This document shows, in pieces, positions 1 through 15,898 of a DNA stretch of 21,315 bases. The stretch spans positions 1 through 21,315 of the IMG/VR virus record IMGVR_UViG_3300048833_000492. One strand, 5' to 3'. How positions within the stretch are numbered: position 1 is the stretch's first letter; the number at the start of each line of letters is the position of its first letter. The DNA comes from a virus. A program made the position numbers and the translations under genes. The notes under the pieces were generated by a model, which was not told the DNA's origin, did no database searches, and was given only the letters and a program-made list of their open reading frames with translations.

Positions 1-764
1 TCGAGGCTCGACACGACGCCGACCACGGCAGCCTTGAAGCCGTTATTGATGGTCGCGGCGATCTCCTGAAACTGCTTGTCGATCTCCGACGCTTTCTTGA
101 TCACGTCGTCTTGCAGCACGCCGCCCAGTTCGTGCGCCCGCTGGATCGTCGCCCGCAGCCCCTTCTCGCCTTGGTCGATCAGCTGCACGAACTGCTCGCC
201 ACCGGAACCTCCGAGCAGTTCATCGAAAATGCGTATCTGCGCCGCCTTATCGAGGTCGCCGAGCCGCTTAATGATCTCCAGCATCATCTCCGAGGGATCG
301 GCCATGCGCTTGGCCAGGTCTTCGGCGCTGAAACCGAGACGCTGGAACGCCTCGGCCGCGCTGCCGCCGCCCGTGGTGATGAACTCATCCGCGCGCAGGC
401 TCAATTCCTTGAACCCGTCCACCATGGCGTCGAGGCCGATGCGGTTGCGCTCGGCGACAAACCTCCATTCTTGGAAAGACTGGAGCGAGAGGCCGGAGCG
501 TTTCGCCTGATCGTCCAGTTCGGCGAGGGCGCTGACAGAGCCCTGAATGGCAGTCGTCACCGCAGCGAAGGTGAGCCCGGCGATGCCGGCGCGGATGCCA
601 GCGGCAGCGGCCGAAACGCCTTTCGCCAAGGCCCCCATGCTGGCCTCGGTTTCCCTCGCGAAGGTCTTGGCCTGCTTGCCCGACTGCGCGAGGCTGTTCT
701 CGAACTCGGCGCTATCGAGGCCGAGACTGACGCGCAGGGCGCCGACGACTTGTCCTTTCGCCAT
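1..764 (-). CDS. Phage tail tape measure protein, N-terminal part (runs off left edge)
   Basis: The minus strand is open from an ATG at 764 to the window edge, giving 254 residues with no stop. The start is preceded by GGAGG about 9 bases upstream; another in-frame ATG at 779 sits on that GGAGG and is less likely. The protein opens MAKGQVVGALRVSLGLDSAEF, the usual opening of tail-length tape measure proteins, followed by a small Ala/Gly-rich hydrophobic segment (about residues 50-75) and long helical stretches with phrases such as RLGFSAEDLAKRMADPSE and LLGGSGGEQFVQLI that are typical of the TMP N-terminal domain. The role would be to set tail length inside a siphovirus-type tail. It lies 174 bases downstream of the capsid gene, which is odd because connector and major tail genes normally separate the two. 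Family call from motif recognition only. Confidence 0.85.
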   Translation of the reverse strand, partial: MAKGQVVGALRVSLGLDSAEFENSLAQSGKQAKTFARETEASMGALAKGVSAAAAGIRAGIAGLTFAAVTTAIQGSVSALAELDDQAKRSGLSLQSFQEWRFVAERNRIGLDAMVDGFKELSLRADEFITTGGGSAAEAFQRLGFSAEDLAKRMADPSEMMLEIIKRLGDLDKAAQIRIFDELLGGSGGEQFVQLIDQGEKGLRATIQRAHELGGVLQDDVIKKASEIDKQFQEIAATINNGFKAAVVGVVSSL

Positions 765-938
765 CGGGCGAGCCTCCATTCGTGTTGAGGGAGTTGCCGG
801 CCGCGCGCCCGAGGAGCGGGGGCCGCCGGCTGTCGGGGTTGTTGCGGACACTCGCCGACTTGTCCGGGCGCGCAGCACTACAGCGCGCCTCGCAGCTCCC
901 CGCCCTCCTGACAGGAAGCCGCGATTGCTCGGAGGAGA
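765..938. other. Capsid to tape-measure junction, no gene
   Basis: This short GC-rich gap holds no convincing gene on either strand. It contains an inverted repeat, GGCGCGC at 867-873 and GCGCGCC at 883-889 (9-base loop), without a U-run after it on either strand, so it is only a weak terminator candidate. In a complete siphovirus several head-completion and tail genes would lie here, so the gap may be the scar of a deletion. Confidence 0.5.
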
Positions 939-2399
939 TCAGGTCTCGCTGATCTTAAGGAGCTTGATCGCCTCGAAGTCGTTCACAGCGCCACCGACGC
1001 GGCGGTAGCAGTAGAAGACCACGTAAGGCTTGGCCGAATAGGGGTCGCGCACCACGCGCGTGGCATGACGATCAACGATGGTGTAGCCACGCCGGAAGTC
1101 GCCGAAGGCGATCGGGAAGGCGCCAGCGGCGACGTTGGGCATGTTCTCGTCCAGCTCGACGGGATGCCCCAGCAGAAGCGACGGCTGGCCGGCCTGCATG
1201 GATTCGTGCCAGATGTAATTGCCGTCCCCATCCTTGAACTTGCGAATGGTTCCAGCGGTCTTGCGGTTCATCAGCCACACCGCGCCGGGACGGAAGGTCG
1301 CCTTCATGGTGTAAACGAGGTCGATCAGGCAATCGCCCGGCGACGGCGAGGTAGTGAAGCCGCTGGCGTTGCCGCTCGGCACATACTGCAGCGTGCCCCA
1401 CGGCCGGGCCCCATCGTCGTCCGCGCTCTTGGCATAGGTGAGGAACCCGCGCGGCCGCTTCACGCCATCGCCGGCAACGAATGCCTGCCCCTCCTTCAGG
1501 CCCAGACGATCACCGACTTTCTCAACCAGCCAGTTGGCGAGGTCGATGTTCGAATCATCGAGAAGGGTCTGGGTGATCTTCGGCGCCGCGTAGATTTCAC
1601 GCGCCGGGATCTCCAGTTGGCCGAGCTTCGGCGAGGCCGTTTCCGGACGACCTTCCTCTTCGCCAACCCACTCCGCAGCCGCCTGGTCGGCGTCCACCAG
1701 TTCCGTCAACGCCCCCGTTCCGATGGGCACCACCCGCGCCAGACGACGAAGCGGCGACACGTCGTAGATGCGACGGGTGATCGAGTCGGTGAAATAGGGG
1801 ATGACAGTATAGCCGCCATCCGGGTTGGACTGCGACGTCAGCGAAGCCTGCACACCGAACCCGCCGCGCGGATTGAGTTCCGCCAACGGTCCATCGTCGC
1901 CCTTGTTGATGTAAGCCCGCAGGGCAGCGTTCACATCGTCATGCGGCGCCGACGAAGGCGGGTTATTGCCACCACCGCCGCCCAGCCCGCTGAGCTTGAG
2001 CGAAGCCATGGCCGCGTTGATCTCATCGACGCCAGCGATGATATTGTCGATCCGCTTCGTTTCCTTGGTCTGGAAACTCGCGAAGGTCTGTTTCAGCTCG
2101 TTGAATACAGCCACCGGATCATCGGGGACCGGCCCAGCATTCACCGACATGATGCCGCGCGCCGGAGGCGGCGTTATCGACGCCAGCGGCGACGCGGGGA
2201 ACGCGTCACCCAAATGGAGCCGCAGATTGGACGGCGACGCGCCCACGGACGGCGCTGCCGCCGCAGCAAGCGCCGACATCGAGAATACGTCAGCGAGCGC
2301 CCCAACACCGGCATGCGCAGCGTTGGGGTCGACCAGTACGGAGACGGCAACCAGCGCCGCCACGATGCCGAGAACGGCAAGAAAACGAAACGCCTTCAT
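939..2399 (-). CDS. HK97-family phage major capsid protein with signal-peptide-like N-terminal extension
   Basis: This 486-residue protein builds the icosahedral shell. From about residue 175 to the end it reads as an HK97-fold capsid: GGYTVIPYFTDSITRRIYDV, then SPLRRLARVVPIGTGAL, an acidic AAEWVGEEEGRPE segment, ALWLMNR-like GAVWLMNRKTAGTIRKFKD, and LLGHPVELDENMP before a final FGDFRRGYTIVDR. Residues 84-135 are a charged helical delta-domain-like segment, then a Gly-rich linker. Residues 1-31 look like a Sec signal peptide: KAFR, a hydrophobic core, then AHA before Gly31. The ATG at 2399 has GAAAGG about 9 bases upstream; the internal ATG at 2150 has no good ribosome binding site, so the long start is preferred. 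A separate prohead protease or portal gene is not found upstream. Confidence 0.9.
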   Translation of the reverse strand: MKAFRFLAVLGIVAALVAVSVLVDPNAAHAGVGALADVFSMSALAAAAAPSVGASPSNLRLHLGDAFPASPLASITPPPARGIMSVNAGPVPDDPVAVFNELKQTFASFQTKETKRIDNIIAGVDEINAAMASLKLSGLGGGGGNNPPSSAPHDDVNAALRAYINKGDDGPLAELNPRGGFGVQASLTSQSNPDGGYTVIPYFTDSITRRIYDVSPLRRLARVVPIGTGALTELVDADQAAAEWVGEEEGRPETASPKLGQLEIPAREIYAAPKITQTLLDDSNIDLANWLVEKVGDRLGLKEGQAFVAGDGVKRPRGFLTYAKSADDDGARPWGTLQYVPSGNASGFTTSPSPGDCLIDLVYTMKATFRPGAVWLMNRKTAGTIRKFKDGDGNYIWHESMQAGQPSLLLGHPVELDENMPNVAAGAFPIAFGDFRRGYTIVDRHATRVVRDPYSAKPYVVFYCYRRVGGAVNDFEAIKLLKISET

Positions 2400-2825
2400 A
2401 GCGTTATGCCTTTCGTGATGATGAAATTGAGGCGCGAAGGGGCTTCACCAGCGGGACACGCTAGGTAAGGCCGTTCGCCAATCGGAAGCCGCGATCCGCC
2501 CCACAGCGCCAGGCGCGCGAGGCGATCACGTATCGGGCTGCATCTCGCTCACCCGCAGATCGTCCGCAGCGCAGGGCATGCGGTCGAAGGTCCTAACCTG
2601 CATCACGCGGAGCTAGGATGAATACACGTACCCGCAGCCCAAAGGATGCGGTCAACTGCGGCTGCATCACGCGCGCCAAGTCGACGGAAAGACTGAGCCC
2701 TGCCAAGCGATCCGTCAACGCCGGGAATTATAACACGCACAAAGAAGGGGACCTGTTCTAAGCCATTGTTTTTTCTCCTATTTCCTAGGCCAAAGATGTG
2801 GACATCCGAAAAATCAAACGTCCTA
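2400..2825. other. Non-coding leader upstream of capsid with short repeats
   Basis: No credible gene lies here. A pair ATGCGGTC...CTGCATCACGCG occurs twice, at 2578-2609 (12-base gap) and 2646-2673 (8-base gap), and a partial third copy CTGCATC lies near 2538. On the minus strand there is a TATAAT at 2732-2727 with only a poor -35 partner, a weak promoter candidate for the capsid gene. Also on the minus strand, a good AGGAG ribosome binding site near 2775 precedes ATG GCT TAG, an aborted reading frame of two codons, perhaps the remnant of a lost gene. Composition is more AT-rich near 2720-2840 than in the flanks. Confidence 0.5.
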
Positions 2826-2900
2826 AGGAAAAAATCTCCGAACTTGGGGGGCGCGGGTCTGAAAGCGAGGGGGGTCCAAGACTTTTCAGCCCCCCCTCCC
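2826..2900 (-). repeat. 75-bp element, copy 1 (cos-like repeat)
   Basis: This is the left copy of a long imperfect direct repeat, also present at 5403-5476. The first 18 bases AGGAAAAAATCTCCGAAC are identical, then one mismatch, then TGGGGGGCGCGGGT identical, then a diverged stretch keeping AAGCGAG and AGACTTT, and finally a C-run with CTCCC. Copy 1 lies directly after the stop of the winged-helix gene at 2903. The right copy sits between an HNH nuclease gene and a TerS-like gene, the normal place for a cohesive-end site in HNH-associated packaging systems. Function as cos or pac is inference. Confidence 0.8.
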
Positions 2901-2902
2901 CT

Positions 2903-3340
2903 CTACGGGCGACGGCGCTTCGACTTAGGGGCAATGCCTCCCAAAGCTCGGATTGTTTCCTCGGCTCGCTTCGCTACAGCCGCGCGCACCTCTGCCGTGT
3001 GCTCGACGCGCTCCAGCCTGCGCCGCTCCATCTCCTGCATCACCCGCTGATCGCGCAGCGCGCGCCGGTCGGGGTCAGGCAGCACTGTCTCAACCGCCCT
3101 CTTGGTCGCCAGAAGCCTTATACCTTTGCCCAGACCCACGATCAGCCCAGCCTCCTCCATCTCGCGCAGCCGGCGCTGGATGATCTCAGGTGACTGTACG
3201 GTCCGCATCGCCAGGTGCTCGCGATCCGCCGGGCTGTAGCCTGCATGGTCGCAGGTGTCGGCGATCACCAGCAGCACAAGGCGAGCGCTAGGCGAAAGGT
3301 CGGGCACGTTCCATGCCCACGCCAGCAGATCAGTCGACAT
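2903..3340 (-). CDS. Winged-helix DNA-binding protein, unknown role
   Basis: The 145-residue protein begins MSTDLLAWAWNVPDLSPSAR; the first in-frame ATG at 3352 is less likely because 3340 gives the short overlap (11 bases) with the preceding gene that is common in phage operons. Residues about 15-75 form a winged helix: SARLVLLVIADTCD, a helix-turn-helix region, and LREMEEAGLIVGLGKGIRLL as recognition helix and wing. The second half is basic, Arg/Glu-rich and helical. Such N-termini occur in phage replication initiators and regulators, but a specific family was not recognised. It is the last gene of the four-gene cassette starting with the AlpA-like gene and ends just before the cos-like repeat. 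Alternative start: 3352. Confidence 0.65.
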   Translation of the reverse strand: MSTDLLAWAWNVPDLSPSARLVLLVIADTCDHAGYSPADREHLAMRTVQSPEIIQRRLREMEEAGLIVGLGKGIRLLATKRAVETVLPDPDRRALRDQRVMQEMERRRLERVEHTAEVRAAVAKRAEETIRALGGIAPKSKRRRP

Positions 3341-3650
3341 CAGCACCACCATCGACGGGATAGGTCAGCATGTAGCGGTTCGGCCGCCCGGGCTGGCGCA
3401 GAGCGATCAAGTATCCAGCCGTGATCAACCGCCCTATGGCTGACGAAAGCGCGCGTTCCGACATATTCACTGCCTCTGAAAGCCTCTTCATCGTGATCTC
3501 TATCTTCATATCCGCTCTCATGGATATGGCAATGAACCACGCGACGATCATATCGCCTCTGCGGACGCGCTTTGATCGTGTGAGTTCATAGAACCAGAGA
3601 AACACCTCTATCGCCAACTTATCGATGAGCCGCCTATTCTTACTCGACAT
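3330..3650 (-). CDS. Winged-helix DNA-binding protein, unknown role
   Basis: This 106-residue protein starts MSSKNRRLIDKLAIEVFLWF. The ATG at 3650 was chosen over 3698 because AGAGGTG lies 7-8 bases upstream and the preceding gene ends at 3655, leaving a 4-base gap. A winged helix is visible at about residues 45-100: MRADMKIEITMKRLSEAVNM, then SERALSSAIGRLITAGYL (recognition helix), then a basic wing ALRQPGRPNRYMLTYP. This resembles the MarR/replication-initiator style of fold. The codon and base use is noticeably more AT-rich than in the flanking phage operons, which together with its neighbours suggests a separately acquired cassette. No specific function can be assigned. Confidence 0.65.
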   Translation of the reverse strand: MSSKNRRLIDKLAIEVFLWFYELTRSKRVRRGDMIVAWFIAISMRADMKIEITMKRLSEAVNMSERALSSAIGRLITAGYLIALRQPGRPNRYMLTYPVDGGADVD

Positions 3651-3654
3651 ATGC

Positions 3655-4230
3655 TCACCTCTTCTTTTGTTGAAGGCGAATTGCCATTGCGAGGTCAATC
3701 TCAGTCATCCGGCCGTGCTTGAGGGCCAGGCACAGCCGAGACAGCTCCCCGTCTGGTATCGCGAGGTCCGCGTGCTCGATGCCGAGGATGCTCGCCAGCT
3801 GCGCCTCATAGGCGGCTCTGTCCGGGAATTTCGGCAAGGATGAACCATAAGGTTCTCTAAGGATGTTATTGCGCGCACTCAGGCGCATGGGTCCCGCGCG
3901 CTCTGGCGCATCGGTCGCGCGCACTTTCTTGCAATCGTCGGCGGCGGCCGAGGGTGGCCATGTGAGCCGATATCGGTTCGCCAACCCGTTCGCGCGCCAC
4001 ACGCTTAGCCAGAGGCGCGTTTCAAGCGCCACAATAATTTCAGATATTCGCCTGTCGCCAAGTCCGGTTATTCTACCAATATGCTCGCGACTTATGAGTG
4101 CATCGCCTGTGCTGTTGCGAATTCTCTGCTCTATAGTCCACGCAACATAGAATTCAGATGGCGTTGTTTTAGAGTCAACACCAATGGCTCGCAACCAGCG
4201 CAGGCGATCCTTGCTTGTGGTGCCGGCCAC
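3655..4230 (-). CDS. Winged-helix protein, possible initiator-like, unknown role
   Basis: This 191-residue protein begins at a GTG at 4230, 13 bases after the stop of the AlpA-like gene; no closer ATG exists in frame. The N-terminal 90 residues read as a helix-turn-helix or winged helix: TPSEFYVAWTIEQRIR, ALISREHIGRITGLGDRRIS, EIIVALETRLWLSVWRANGL, and a YRLTWP strand. The C-terminal part is helical and charged, ending LAMAIRLQQKKR. Together with the next two genes this makes three adjacent winged-helix proteins of different sequence, which is unusual. A plausible but unproven role is replication or transcription control of the cassette. The start is uncertain because the ribosome binding site is weak. 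Confidence 0.6.
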   Translation of the reverse strand: MAGTTSKDRLRWLRAIGVDSKTTPSEFYVAWTIEQRIRNSTGDALISREHIGRITGLGDRRISEIIVALETRLWLSVWRANGLANRYRLTWPPSAAADDCKKVRATDAPERAGPMRLSARNNILREPYGSSLPKFPDRAAYEAQLASILGIEHADLAIPDGELSRLCLALKHGRMTEIDLAMAIRLQQKKR

Positions 4231-4243
4231 ATTGCACCGACCG

Positions 4244-4465
4244 TCAGGCTATCCCGCCGGATGCGGGGGACTTGGCCTTAGCCTCCTGCTCAGCGAGCCA
4301 TGCGGCGAGGGATGCGCGCCGGGAACAGACCTTCTTGCCGATTTTGAACGTCGGTATCTGCCCTCTGGCGTGCAGGTGGTAGACTTGCGCGGTCGTCATG
4401 TTGAGGCACTTCGAAATGGCCTCCACGCCATACAGCAAATCGGTAGCGTCGGAGCCGTCGACCAT
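4244..4465 (-). CDS. AlpA/excisionase-like HTH DNA-binding protein
   Basis: The 73-residue protein has the compact MerR-like helix-turn-helix seen in AlpA and excisionase families: YGVEAISKCLNMTTAQVYHL, a turn, ARGQIPTFKIGKKV and a final helix RRASLAAWLAEQEAKAK. These proteins typically bind short direct repeats and either activate integrase or excision genes or switch on phage-satellite operons. The ATG at 4465 has AAGGA 9 bases upstream. It heads a four-gene minus-strand cassette of DNA-binding proteins, and its upstream region carries phased short repeats (4482-4533) that could be its operators. Cys30- and Lys-rich recognition regions are ordinary for the family. Exact role (excision versus regulation) is not determined by sequence. 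Confidence 0.75.
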   Translation of the reverse strand: MVDGSDATDLLYGVEAISKCLNMTTAQVYHLHARGQIPTFKIGKKVCSRRASLAAWLAEQEAKAKSPASGGIA

Positions 4466-4481
4466 GTTGAGGTTCCTTTCA

Positions 4482-4533
4482 TGTCGCGCCCTTGTCGCGC
4501 GCAGATGCGGCTAGCCTTGGCTAAAGCCGGCTA
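4482..4533 (-). promoter_or_regulatory. Phased short repeats upstream of the AlpA-like gene, putative operators
   Basis: Reading the plus strand, TGTCGCGC occurs at 4482-4489 and 4493-4500 (11-base period), followed by GGCTA at 4509, 4519 and 4529 (exact 10-base period). All five lie on one helical face or nearly so, 17-70 bases upstream of the AlpA-like start. Such phased direct repeats are typical of cooperative binding by small HTH regulators. The binding protein is inferred, not shown. Confidence 0.45.
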
Positions 4534-4570
4534 AGTCATTGAAATTCTTATCGCGGTGCTTGCAACAAGA

Positions 4571-4601
4571 AACCCGCCCCGGAAGCCCTCCGAAGCGGGT
4601 T
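4571..4601 (-). terminator. Rho-independent terminator after truncated terL
   Basis: AACCCGC at 4571-4577 pairs with GCGGGTT at 4595-4601, with an inner CGGA/TCCG stem. On the minus strand it is followed by the U-rich TTTCTTGTTG. It lies 26 bases after the stop of the terL-like gene at 4627 and would separate packaging transcription from the AlpA cassette. Confidence 0.7.
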
Positions 4602-4626
4602 AAGATATTGATTAGACTATACGTTT

Positions 4627-4911
4627 TCAGAGCTTATCGGTGTTATTCGGCACGAGGTTGAAAATCTCGCCTACGAAACGGCGGCCGGTTTCCGGTTCGA
4701 TCGAGCCGAACGCCGCACGCACGATGTCGCGCATCCACTCGCCGGCGGCCTCGCCCATGGTCGGCATGCCGGCGATGTCCGGAACGCGCAGCTTGTTGAA
4801 GAGCGCGACGGCGCAGTCGGCCAGCACGTCGTCGAGCGGCAACGCCGGGATCGGGCTCTGTCCGGCCTGCAGCTTGGCAAACCAGTCGGGACAGGCGAAG
4901 GAGACGGACAT
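4627..4911 (-). pseudogene. Terminase large subunit N-terminal fragment, ends at Walker A
   Basis: The 94-residue product matches the N-terminal region of a common large-terminase family: CPDWFAKLQAG, LPLDDVLADCAVALFNKLRVPDIAG, TMGEAAGEWMRDIVRAAFGS, and GRRFVGEIFNLVP. In intact relatives the next residues are the ATP-binding loop (of the VPKKNSKT kind); here the text becomes VPNNTDKL and then stops at 4627. The ATPase and nuclease domains, normally about 400 further residues, are missing and no continuation is found in the window. The start overlaps the terS-like stop as TGATG at 4911. It is therefore probably a truncated, non-functional terL; a small independent protein derived from it cannot be excluded. 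The homology call is from recalled family sequence, not a search. Confidence 0.7.
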
Positions 4912-5402
4912 CAGTGCCGCTGCATCCGGGCGAAGATATCGCCGTAGTCCGGCGGGATATCCTGCGCGTCCCTCTGTGCCTGTTCCTTCTTGCCCACCTT
5001 CACCGGCCGATCGTCCTCGGTATCGTCGTCCTCGTCGAGGCTCGCGCCGCGGCTGCGGGGGGCCTGCGGCCCGGCGGCTTTCATCATCTCATGCAGCCGC
5101 CCGACAGCCGCCGTCTTCCCCTCGCGCACCAGCTTGAGCAGCACGTCGAGCATCAGCCCCTCGATCGACAGCCGCCCCACCTCCAGCTCGCGGGAAAAAT
5201 GTTTGCGCAGCGTCTTCTCGTCGATGCCCATGTCGTCGGCGATAGCCTTCTGCGTCCAGCCCGCCGCCACGCGAACGGCTACAAAGTCTTGATTTGTCTT
5301 GTCTTTTTTGAAGGACGGGCGCCCCCGCCGATCACGGATCGGCAGGATAGGCTGGCCGAACAGATCAACCTGCGGCACCGGCTCGGAATTTTCATCGCTC
5401 AC
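4911..5402 (-). CDS. TerS-like HTH protein (putative terminase small subunit)
   Basis: I take a GTG at 5402 as the start (163 residues, VSDENSEPVPQVDLFGQPIL) because GGAG lies 10 bases upstream and anything further upstream would translate the cos-like repeat. The order is a Pro-rich opening, a basic patch RDRRGRPSFKKDK, a helix-turn-helix at about 45-75 (FVAVRVAAGWTQKAIADDMG, IDEKTLRKHFSREL), a helical segment LMLDVLLKLVREGKTAAVGR typical of oligomerising small terminases, and an acidic then basic tail. Small terminases recognise cos or pac DNA and load the motor. Position between the cos-like element and terL, with TGATG overlap to terL, supports the call. It could instead be a generic HTH regulator. 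Confidence 0.65.
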   Translation of the reverse strand: MSDENSEPVPQVDLFGQPILPIRDRRGRPSFKKDKTNQDFVAVRVAAGWTQKAIADDMGIDEKTLRKHFSRELEVGRLSIEGLMLDVLLKLVREGKTAAVGRLHEMMKAAGPQAPRSRGASLDEDDDTEDDRPVKVGKKEQAQRDAQDIPPDYGDIFARMQRH

Positions 5403-5476
5403 AGGAAAAAATCTCCGAACATGGGGGGCGCGGGTAGGGAAGCGAGTGGCCTTCCAGACTTTCCAACCCCCCTCCC
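5403..5476 (-). repeat. 75-bp element, copy 2 (putative cos site)
   Basis: Right copy of the repeat described at 2826-2900, in the same orientation. It fills most of the gap between the HNH-kinase stop (5525) and the terS-like GTG (5402), and its minus-strand sequence supplies the GGAG ribosome binding site of that gene. The core TGGGGGGCGCGGGT is shared by both copies. Location next to HNH and terminase genes fits a 3-prime-overhang type cos, which is inference. Confidence 0.75.
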
Positions 5477-5524: not shown

Positions 5525-6364
5525 TCAATCCCTTGGGGCAGTGGTGGATTGCTTGGCCCGCTCAAACCACTGGTCCACCAGCATCCCCATCCGCTCGACC
5601 TCACCCTTGCGGCTGGGGTCGGAAGCGATGCGGCGAAGGCACTCTTCCCGACAGGTATCCATCAGGACCACACGGGCTTCGCCCAATTGCGCCGACCACG
5701 CCAGCCGCTCCTGCACGGTGGGCGCCGCCACAACGAACCAAGCGAGGGCGTGGGTGGTATCGGTCGCAAGCGACACCAGCATTCTGTTGCGCTCTTCAAG
5801 GGCGTGGCCGGTGAAGCCCGGAGCATGGGCATGCAACCCACCCCCCGAGAGGCGCGCCCTGATGACATCGAGGTCGATCACGAGATCGTTCGGCCCCTTG
5901 TGCCGTGCGACATAGGTGCTTTTGCCCGATCCCGGCGGGCCGCACACGATCACCACCGGGATGCGCGGCCTCGGTATCTCCGGCGCCGCCCTGCTTGCTG
6001 CCTCACGGCTTATGCCGCGACGCTCTTCCGCCTGCTTCACCTTGTCATGGCAAGGCTTGCAGAGCGTCTGCAGATTGCCCTCATCCCAGAACAGGCGCTC
6101 ATCGCCGCGATGCGGCAAGATGTGATCGCAGACGAGACGTGACGTCTCCGCGATCACGGCCCCGCATTCCGGCCTCTGACAGGTGAATAGATCACGCAGG
6201 AACACCCTGCGCCGCAGCTTTTTCCAGCGAGCGAGATCGTACCAAGCGCGCCACGGCGCCGCGATGCTGCGGGCGCGATCTCGATCAGGACCTGCATGTG
6301 TCTGGGTGGCAAGACGAGACGGCGCGGGAGCAAGCCGGGCTGGCAGCGTCTTCAGCCGCGCCAT
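5525..6364 (-). CDS. HNH endonuclease fused to P-loop kinase-like domain
   Basis: The 279-residue protein starts at ATG 6364 (GGAG 7 bases upstream; a GTG at 6370 is the alternative). Residues about 40-115 are an HNH nuclease: WYDLARWKKLRRRVFLRD, a zinc-type pair CQRPECG, then CDHILPHRGDERLFWDEGNLQ and LCKPCHDKVK, so the metal-binding His/Asn/His and four Cys are present. Residues about 130-275 are a P-loop NTPase: VVIVCGPPGSGKSTYVARHK (Walker A), DLVIDLDVIRARL, and DTCREECLRRIASDPSRKG, resembling small-molecule or polynucleotide 5-prime kinases. HNH proteins next to terminase genes are known to assist cos cleavage. The kinase fusion could modify DNA ends, but this is speculation. It is followed by the cos-like repeat and terS. 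Confidence 0.8.
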   Translation of the reverse strand: MARLKTLPARLAPAPSRLATQTHAGPDRDRARSIAAPWRAWYDLARWKKLRRRVFLRDLFTCQRPECGAVIAETSRLVCDHILPHRGDERLFWDEGNLQTLCKPCHDKVKQAEERRGISREAASRAAPEIPRPRIPVVIVCGPPGSGKSTYVARHKGPNDLVIDLDVIRARLSGGGLHAHAPGFTGHALEERNRMLVSLATDTTHALAWFVVAAPTVQERLAWSAQLGEARVVLMDTCREECLRRIASDPSRKGEVERMGMLVDQWFERAKQSTTAPRD

Positions 6365-6386
6365 CGCCACGCTCCAGAAATGACAA

Positions 6387-6413
6387 TGCCCGGCCGCGTT
6401 TCCGCTCCGGGCA
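6387..6413 (-). terminator. Rho-independent terminator ending the leftward early operon
   Basis: TGCCCGG at 6387-6393 pairs with CCGGGCA at 6407-6413, followed on the minus strand by TTGTCATTTCT. It lies between the last early gene (stop 6468) and the HNH gene start (6364), a natural boundary between early and late transcription where an antiterminator could act. Confidence 0.55.
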
Positions 6414-6467
6414 CAACTTGGACAATCTCATTTCGTGCGCAAATACGCGCACAGCTTCTGCCCACCG

Positions 6468-15257: not shown

Positions 15258-15302
15258 GCTCATCCCAACACCTCCGGGTGATTGGCATTTTCGGGGGAAG
15301 CC
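15258..15302 (-). repeat. 45-bp direct repeat, left copy
   Basis: This copy matches 15854-15898 at 44 of 45 positions (one mismatch near the right end). On the minus strand it encodes the end PENANHPEVLG, a TGA and an overlapping ATG. The copies flank a 551-base cassette and its presence at both ends marks an insertion or duplication event between cro and the next leftward gene. Confidence 0.9.
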
Positions 15303-15853: not shown

Positions 15854-15898
15854 GCTCATCCCAACACCTCCGGGTGATTGGCATTTTCGGGGGGAGCC
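15854..15898 (-). repeat. 45-bp direct repeat, right copy
   Basis: This copy forms the 3-prime end of the cro-like gene (residues PENANHPEVLG and stop). The left copy at 15258-15302 repeats the same coding end, so the natural junction of cro with its next gene has apparently been duplicated around an inserted segment. Confidence 0.9.

Follow-up and report, generated by a model that had tools for sequence, protein, structure and literature searches.

Why a viral DNA should carry what looks like the same packaging site twice is the question raised by IMG/VR record IMGVR_UViG_3300048833_000492, of which positions 1 to 21,315 were analyzed (21,315 nucleotides, termed here the window). Two copies of a 75-base element resembling a cohesive-end site (cos) lie in the same orientation at 2826-2900 and 5403-5476, with 84% identity across 74-75 bp (E = 3.9e-18, BLAST within the record); 18 identical bases at one end are followed by 1 mismatch and 14 further identical bases. 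No third copy was found by BLAST in the record or in a longer identical contig. The two copies are very probably the cos sites of two nested mobile elements, a helper prophage and a satellite embedded in it.

The relevant genes of the window are all on the minus strand, and gene order is given in that direction. On the helper side, a gene for an HNH endonuclease fused to an AAA domain is followed by the right cos copy, the terminase small-subunit gene (terS) and a 94-codon open reading frame. Beyond these lie a terminator, an AlpA gene, three helix-turn-helix (HTH) genes and the left cos copy, after which a gene-free stretch of approximately 430 bp leads to a capsid gene and to a tape-measure gene extending past the window edge. 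The cassette at 2903-4626 has a G+C content of 59.1%, versus 67.1% in the helper part. The initial annotation had described the imperfect repeat, the placement of its right copy between the HNH gene and terS (GTG start at 5402) and that of its left copy behind the last gene (2903-3352) of an AT-richer cassette, all of which agree with the present analysis. It had also described broken terminase genes within a unit bracketed by the two copies. Only the large-subunit gene (terL) is truncated, after 93 codons, whereas terS appears intact; both belong to the helper rather than to the cassette, and the unit is bounded not by cos copies but by attachment (att) cores at 4646-4652 and at L043 9554. 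Of its suggested explanations, comparative evidence supports a cos-like role for the element and the idea that a satellite-like cassette carries a second packaging site, while recombination between two phages is unneeded, as the junction is a clean site-specific integration.

Comparison with related phages indicates that the right copy is the predicted cos of an HK97-like prophage. In a search of phage records, relatives of the element fell in the HNH-terS gap of Agrobacterium phage Rivra and Mesorhizobium phage vB_MseS-P1, whose terS start regions resemble that of the window, and a match in Nostoc phage Nsp-JY10 lies just upstream of a small gene preceding the terminase. The Rivra record ends 2 bp past the element but is labelled circular and therefore does not establish a physical end. 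The linear HK97 record both starts and ends inside its HNH-terS gap, at a position equivalent to the helper cos. In alignment, HK97 shares with the element a G-tract, an AAA-TC block, GACCGCCGCC near the end and GATTTTTTT after the start. HK97 TerS binds +15 to +29, recognizing an A-tract, according to cryo-electron microscopy work that also reports a 10-nt 3' overhang (PMC11331095). The 18-bp block identical in both window copies includes GGAGATTTTTT, the equivalent of the HK97 A-tract site, and the 14-bp identical block includes ACCCGCGCCCCCC. By its resemblance to the HK97 site, GGAGATTTTTT is a candidate TerS-binding A-tract, and the blocks kept in both diverged copies would match the expected needs of an HK97-like terminase.

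The left copy is assigned, by mapping of its surroundings, as the predicted cos of a 9.8-kb helper-embedded satellite inserted by a tyrosine integrase into the Walker A codons of terL. The 94-codon reading frame is the TerL N terminus up to Walker A and shares 80% identity with intact terL genes of IMG/VR contigs; relatives with intact terL provide the empty-site reference. An assignment of the 94-residue product as a stand-alone small protein (phrog_11206) was dropped, since its end at Walker A and the distal 3' part show it to be the N terminus of TerL. The 34.8-kb contig G001 (IMGVR_UViG_3300048586_000854) includes the entire window at 100% identity, and in it a tyrosine integrase gene (L043 8314-9489) is followed by the resumption of terL with LPKKNGKTTNAAALG; the terL 3' part, from L043 9540 onward, matches TerL families. 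The attL core TGCCGAA recurs as attR at about L043 9548-9554, and joining the flanks across this 7-bp core gives FNLVPKKNGKTTNAAALG in one open reading frame. The inserted unit is 9,798 bp (window 1-4652 plus L043 4402-9554), running from 4652 leftward beyond the window start to its other end at L043 9554. Its genes are co-oriented with the split terL, which is interrupted without replacement sequence, and AlpA lies at the attL end and the integrase at the attR end.

At least five further satellites of like architecture were found in isolate genomes or IMG/VR contigs. The satellite of Xanthobacteraceae bacterium 501b again occupies the Walker A codons of terL, although that terL is only 22% identical over the matched part, whereas Microvirga lupini and IMG/VR contig G003 carry a satellite in the capsid gene, and in genome G979 one helper prophage carries two, in terS (S1) and in a tail gene (S2). 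The six fully mapped satellites are 9.1-10.5 kb each, and the joined flanks are in frame in all six. Hosts of the relatives are Alphaproteobacteria, and the targets are terL, terS, capsid and tail genes. The portal gene is a probable further target: in contig G256 the integrase is followed by what appears, by eye, to be the C terminus of a lambda-type portal, and the contig stops before attL. Scaffold KB899087.1 (5.08 Mb), Microvirga lupini and a 4.56-Mb contig likewise contain the nested structure. The family looks rare: of 297 genomes in the family of 501b, 2 have AlpA relatives at E <= 1e-15, and of 385 in its class, 2 have strong integrase matches. When four integrases served as queries against genome contigs, only four loci came back, including L051, an ordinary prophage. 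L111 (IMGVR_UViG_2788500572_000002), an AlpA/integrase element that is more distant, has its own protease, capsid and tape-measure genes; it is embedded in terL at another position, and its integrase is 29% identical. An integrase 38% identical over its full length is encoded on plasmid NZ_CP059450.1 of Azospirillum brasilense (1083805-1084959), where no gene is annotated.

Whether the satellite cos follows its helper was assessed in five helpers carrying six satellites, by local alignment with shuffled controls. The HNH-terS cos of each helper has a copy in its satellite (two in G003), with scores of 39-68 against the own helper, 7-26 against other helpers and a shuffled maximum of 16. In the 5-Mb genome of G979 the cos occurs exactly three times, in the helper, S1 and S2. 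Retention of the helper's presumed TerS-binding block in the satellite cos suggests direct use of helper TerS, and such matched pairs offer a natural series from which the cos bases required by a terminase could be read. The two copies in the G003 satellite (L046) are partial and lie approximately 2.3 kb apart, recalling the two cos sites reported for EcCICFT073.

The seven embedded alphaproteobacterial integrases form one branch (100/99 support), separate from 14 relatives that were not found inside late genes; scans beside the nonembedded integrases found one tRNA only. Integrase retargeting by domain exchange is suggested by alignment of the window satellite with the two G979 satellites: DNA identity is mostly 80-100% as far as integrase codon ~40-55 and chance-like thereafter, the remainder of the proteins being 29-36% identical, and the targets differ (terL, terS and tail gene). 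Upstream of the integrase, the two G979 satellites (L096 2061-4110 and L097 5751-6793) share about 1-2 kb at 97% identity with the window's satellite (L043 6433-8483). The satellites carry the doubled motif GCGACA-N5-GCGACA, with variants, on either side of attP. A strong hairpin followed by T's begins 35-54 bp inside attL in each of the seven satellites examined, and this predicted terminator should stop the helper late transcript from entering the satellite and reaching downstream helper genes.

These features suggest how satellite and helper might interact. Integration would destroy terL, and the attL terminator would halt the helper late transcript, leaving the late genes off. On helper induction, AlpA and the integrase would excise the satellite and restore terL, the reading frame of which is continuous in the joined sequence. 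The satellite circle would then replicate, and its cos, in which the presumed TerS-binding and cleavage blocks of the helper are retained, would be used by the restored helper terminase together with the HNH protein, placing satellite DNA in particles. The terminator and split terL predict that helper packaging is switched on only by satellite excision. The enterobacterial satellite 11capE excises after composite induction (PMC10111431), which makes the excision and packaging steps proposed here plausible. The particle may be altered by the capsid and tape-measure genes that the satellite itself carries.

The presence of phage capsid, tape-measure and tail genes would also fit a full-size temperate phage that had decayed within another prophage, its cos being simply its own. 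This is improbable, given the similar size of six independent elements and the uniformity of their recognized content (AlpA, integrase, cos copy and a few capsid or tail genes); terS, terL and portal genes were not recognized inside them, although not every gene is annotated. Moreover, each cos fits the current helper rather than a common ancestor, and decay would not yield such uniformity. It is less probable still that the repeat is a regulatory leader or another nonpackaging element, a reading prompted by its position directly before terS, with the A-tract of the 18-bp block adjoining the start codon. No gene begins directly behind the satellite copy, the position coincides with the HK97 physical ends, and different helpers have distinct elements, each copied in the satellite that it carries. 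Misjoining of two mobile elements at a common repeat during assembly is barely credible. The window does come from a metagenomic viral contig, and the same reads may underlie the longer identical one, but identity between the cos copies is only 84%, terL is interrupted precisely by an insertion that is co-oriented and has an integrase at its end, and the same structure occurs in the large assemblies named above. Such a chimera, like phage-phage recombination, was set aside on the basis of the precise att junction and the genome assemblies.

Several observations weigh against two functional, nested cos sites. The helper in the window's own contig is defective, as the in-frame fusion of the terL 3' part to an N-acetylmuramidase gene implies loss of the portal-to-tail genes by deletion, and the satellite copy in the window may be stranded there. 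The distant element L111, a seventh embedded satellite, has no detectable cos in common with its helper. Domain and PHROG matches in the window's satellite gave no recognizable primase, only HTH replication-like proteins, and no packaging-redirecting gene of the type found in Staphylococcus aureus pathogenicity islands (SaPIs) and phage-inducible chromosomal islands (PICIs) was identified. Finally, cos function, excision and packaging of the satellite are deduced from comparison rather than experiment.

Table 1. Features of the helper prophage and satellite in the window
Feature	Position	Strand	Evidence or remark
Helper prophage cos, HK97-type (predicted)	5403..5476	-	Between HNH and terS; layout like Rivra, vB_MseS-P1 and HK97; 84% copy
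Helper terS-like gene, GTG start directly after cos	4911..5402	-	phrog_12540, 8e-28; weak terS match, phrog_309
Helper HNH endonuclease fused to AAA_33	5525..6370	-	PF01844, 3.4e-6; PF13671, 3.3e-10; phrog_589, phrog_4581
Helper terL 5' fragment, ends after residue 93	4627..4911	-	phrog_7622 (terminase large subunit), 2.5e-19
attL core TGCCGAA, in terL Walker A codons	4646..4652	. (core read on - strand)	Same core in attR
Satellite part inside the window	1..4652	-	Identical longer contig G001 and att mapping
Satellite cos (predicted), copy matching the helper's	2826..2900	-	84% identical to 5403-5476; helper-matched copies in five other satellites
Intrinsic terminator inside attL (predicted)	4571..4601	-	14-pair stem and T-rich tail; fold z = -5.1
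Doubled arm-type motif GCGACA-N5-GCGACA, AlpA side of attP	4482..4498	-	Both attP sides in satellites, with variants
AlpA-like HTH_17 regulator/excisionase	4244..4465	-	HTH_17, 8.5e-6, just under the Pfam cut-off; phrog_66 excisionase, 1e-4
Replication-initiation-like HTH protein	3655..4230	-	phrog_391 (O-like), 2e-4
Winged-HTH protein	3330..3698	-	HTH_24, 4e-4; no PHROG match
Replication-initiation-like HTH protein, directly upstream of satellite cos	2903..3352	-	phrog_1032, 1e-10
Satellite major capsid protein	939..2399	-	PF05065, 2.9e-85; 44% identical to the 501b satellite capsid
Tape-measure gene, 5' part	1..764	-	phrog_10574, 4.8e-109; runs on in L043 to 5410

Among the satellite genes (Table 1), the AlpA-like protein is 92-93% identical to those of the 501b and G979 S1 satellites, whereas IMG/VR searches with two HTH proteins (149 and 191 residues) and the capsid protein returned the identical contig only. 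The tail-gene satellite S2 of G979 encodes a DUF5906 protein (L097 175-1698), a family found in the replication zone of enterobacterial PICIs. On the helper side, the AAA_33 part of the cos-adjacent HNH protein is kinase-like, and PHROGs names the family terminase small subunit; the terL-muramidase fusion (L043 9604-11358) includes a peptidoglycan-binding domain. Elsewhere in the window, a 45-bp direct repeat (15258-15302 and 15854-15898, 98%) supplies two different minus-strand open reading frames with a common C-terminal ending, ENANHPEVLG, and a stretch matching it lies at 6403-6447 of the joined locus of G979.

The helper cos region resembles that of HK97, with its HNH protein gp74, in the HNH-cos-terS order, the G-tract and AAA-TC block, an ACC-GCGCC-type block near the cut and an A-tract beyond it, and differs in the fused AAA_33 domain and in the doubling of the site owing to the satellite. 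Capsid-forming PICIs (cf-PICIs) encode a complete set of head and packaging genes of their own, terminase, portal and protease among them; in the window's satellite, only capsid, tape-measure and tail genes were recognized. Gram-negative PICIs of the EcCICFT073 type are likewise small satellites that carry AlpA, an integrase, a cos and, often, a capsid gene, but they occupy chromosomal sites. The cosB of EcCICFT073 is unlike that of its helper, and Rpp switches TerS to it (PMC6739421), whereas the satellite cos described here keeps the helper's presumed TerS-binding block.

The closest system is that of the helper-embedded PICIs (HE-PICIs) of Enterobacterales, e.g., 11capE in Escherichia coli NRG857c (Tommasini et al. 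2023, PMC10111431). Both types lie inside and co-oriented with a prophage late gene that is disrupted without replacement, carry int, an AlpA-type gene, a capsid gene and a helper-like cos, have doubled arm-type motifs to either side of attP and an integrase clade that retargets among late genes, and can occur as two satellites in one helper. The satellites described here differ in their alphaproteobacterial hosts and in integrases ~22% identical to, and outside, the HE-PICI clade. Membership of the 11capE clade was rejected for the window integrase, which shares 22.8% identity (32 bits) with that of 11capE; the latter joins beside the embedded clade only via a very long branch. In 11capE, int and AlpA both lie at attL, whereas here they occupy opposite ends, int at attR and AlpA at attL. 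The doubled TGTATTGC arm motif of HE-PICIs is replaced by GCGACA-N5-GCGACA, so that the arrangement of tgTGTATTGCantgTGTATTGCa on both attP sides is matched in layout but not in sequence. Further differences are the terminator just inside attL (none was seen by eye between attL and int in 11capE), the terL Walker A and terS sites, and the lack of a recognizable primase in the window's satellite.

Because integrase clade, gene order and arm motif all differ from those of HE-PICIs, the alphaproteobacterial helper-embedded satellites are set apart as a separate lineage, predicted from sequence comparison to work like HE-PICIs; no earlier report of such satellites in Alphaproteobacteria was found in the open-licence PMC literature, subscription papers being outside the search. 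The fuller proposal falls a little short of an even call: that this lineage holds the late operon hostage via the attL terminator, retargets by swapping the integrase core-binding/catalytic domain while the arm-binding N terminus and arm sites are kept nearly identical, and tunes its cos to each new helper. HE-PICIs have so far been described in Enterobacterales, from one integrase clade, and late-gene parasitism with another integrase clade, gene order and att motif suggests that this lifestyle arose more than once or is much older.

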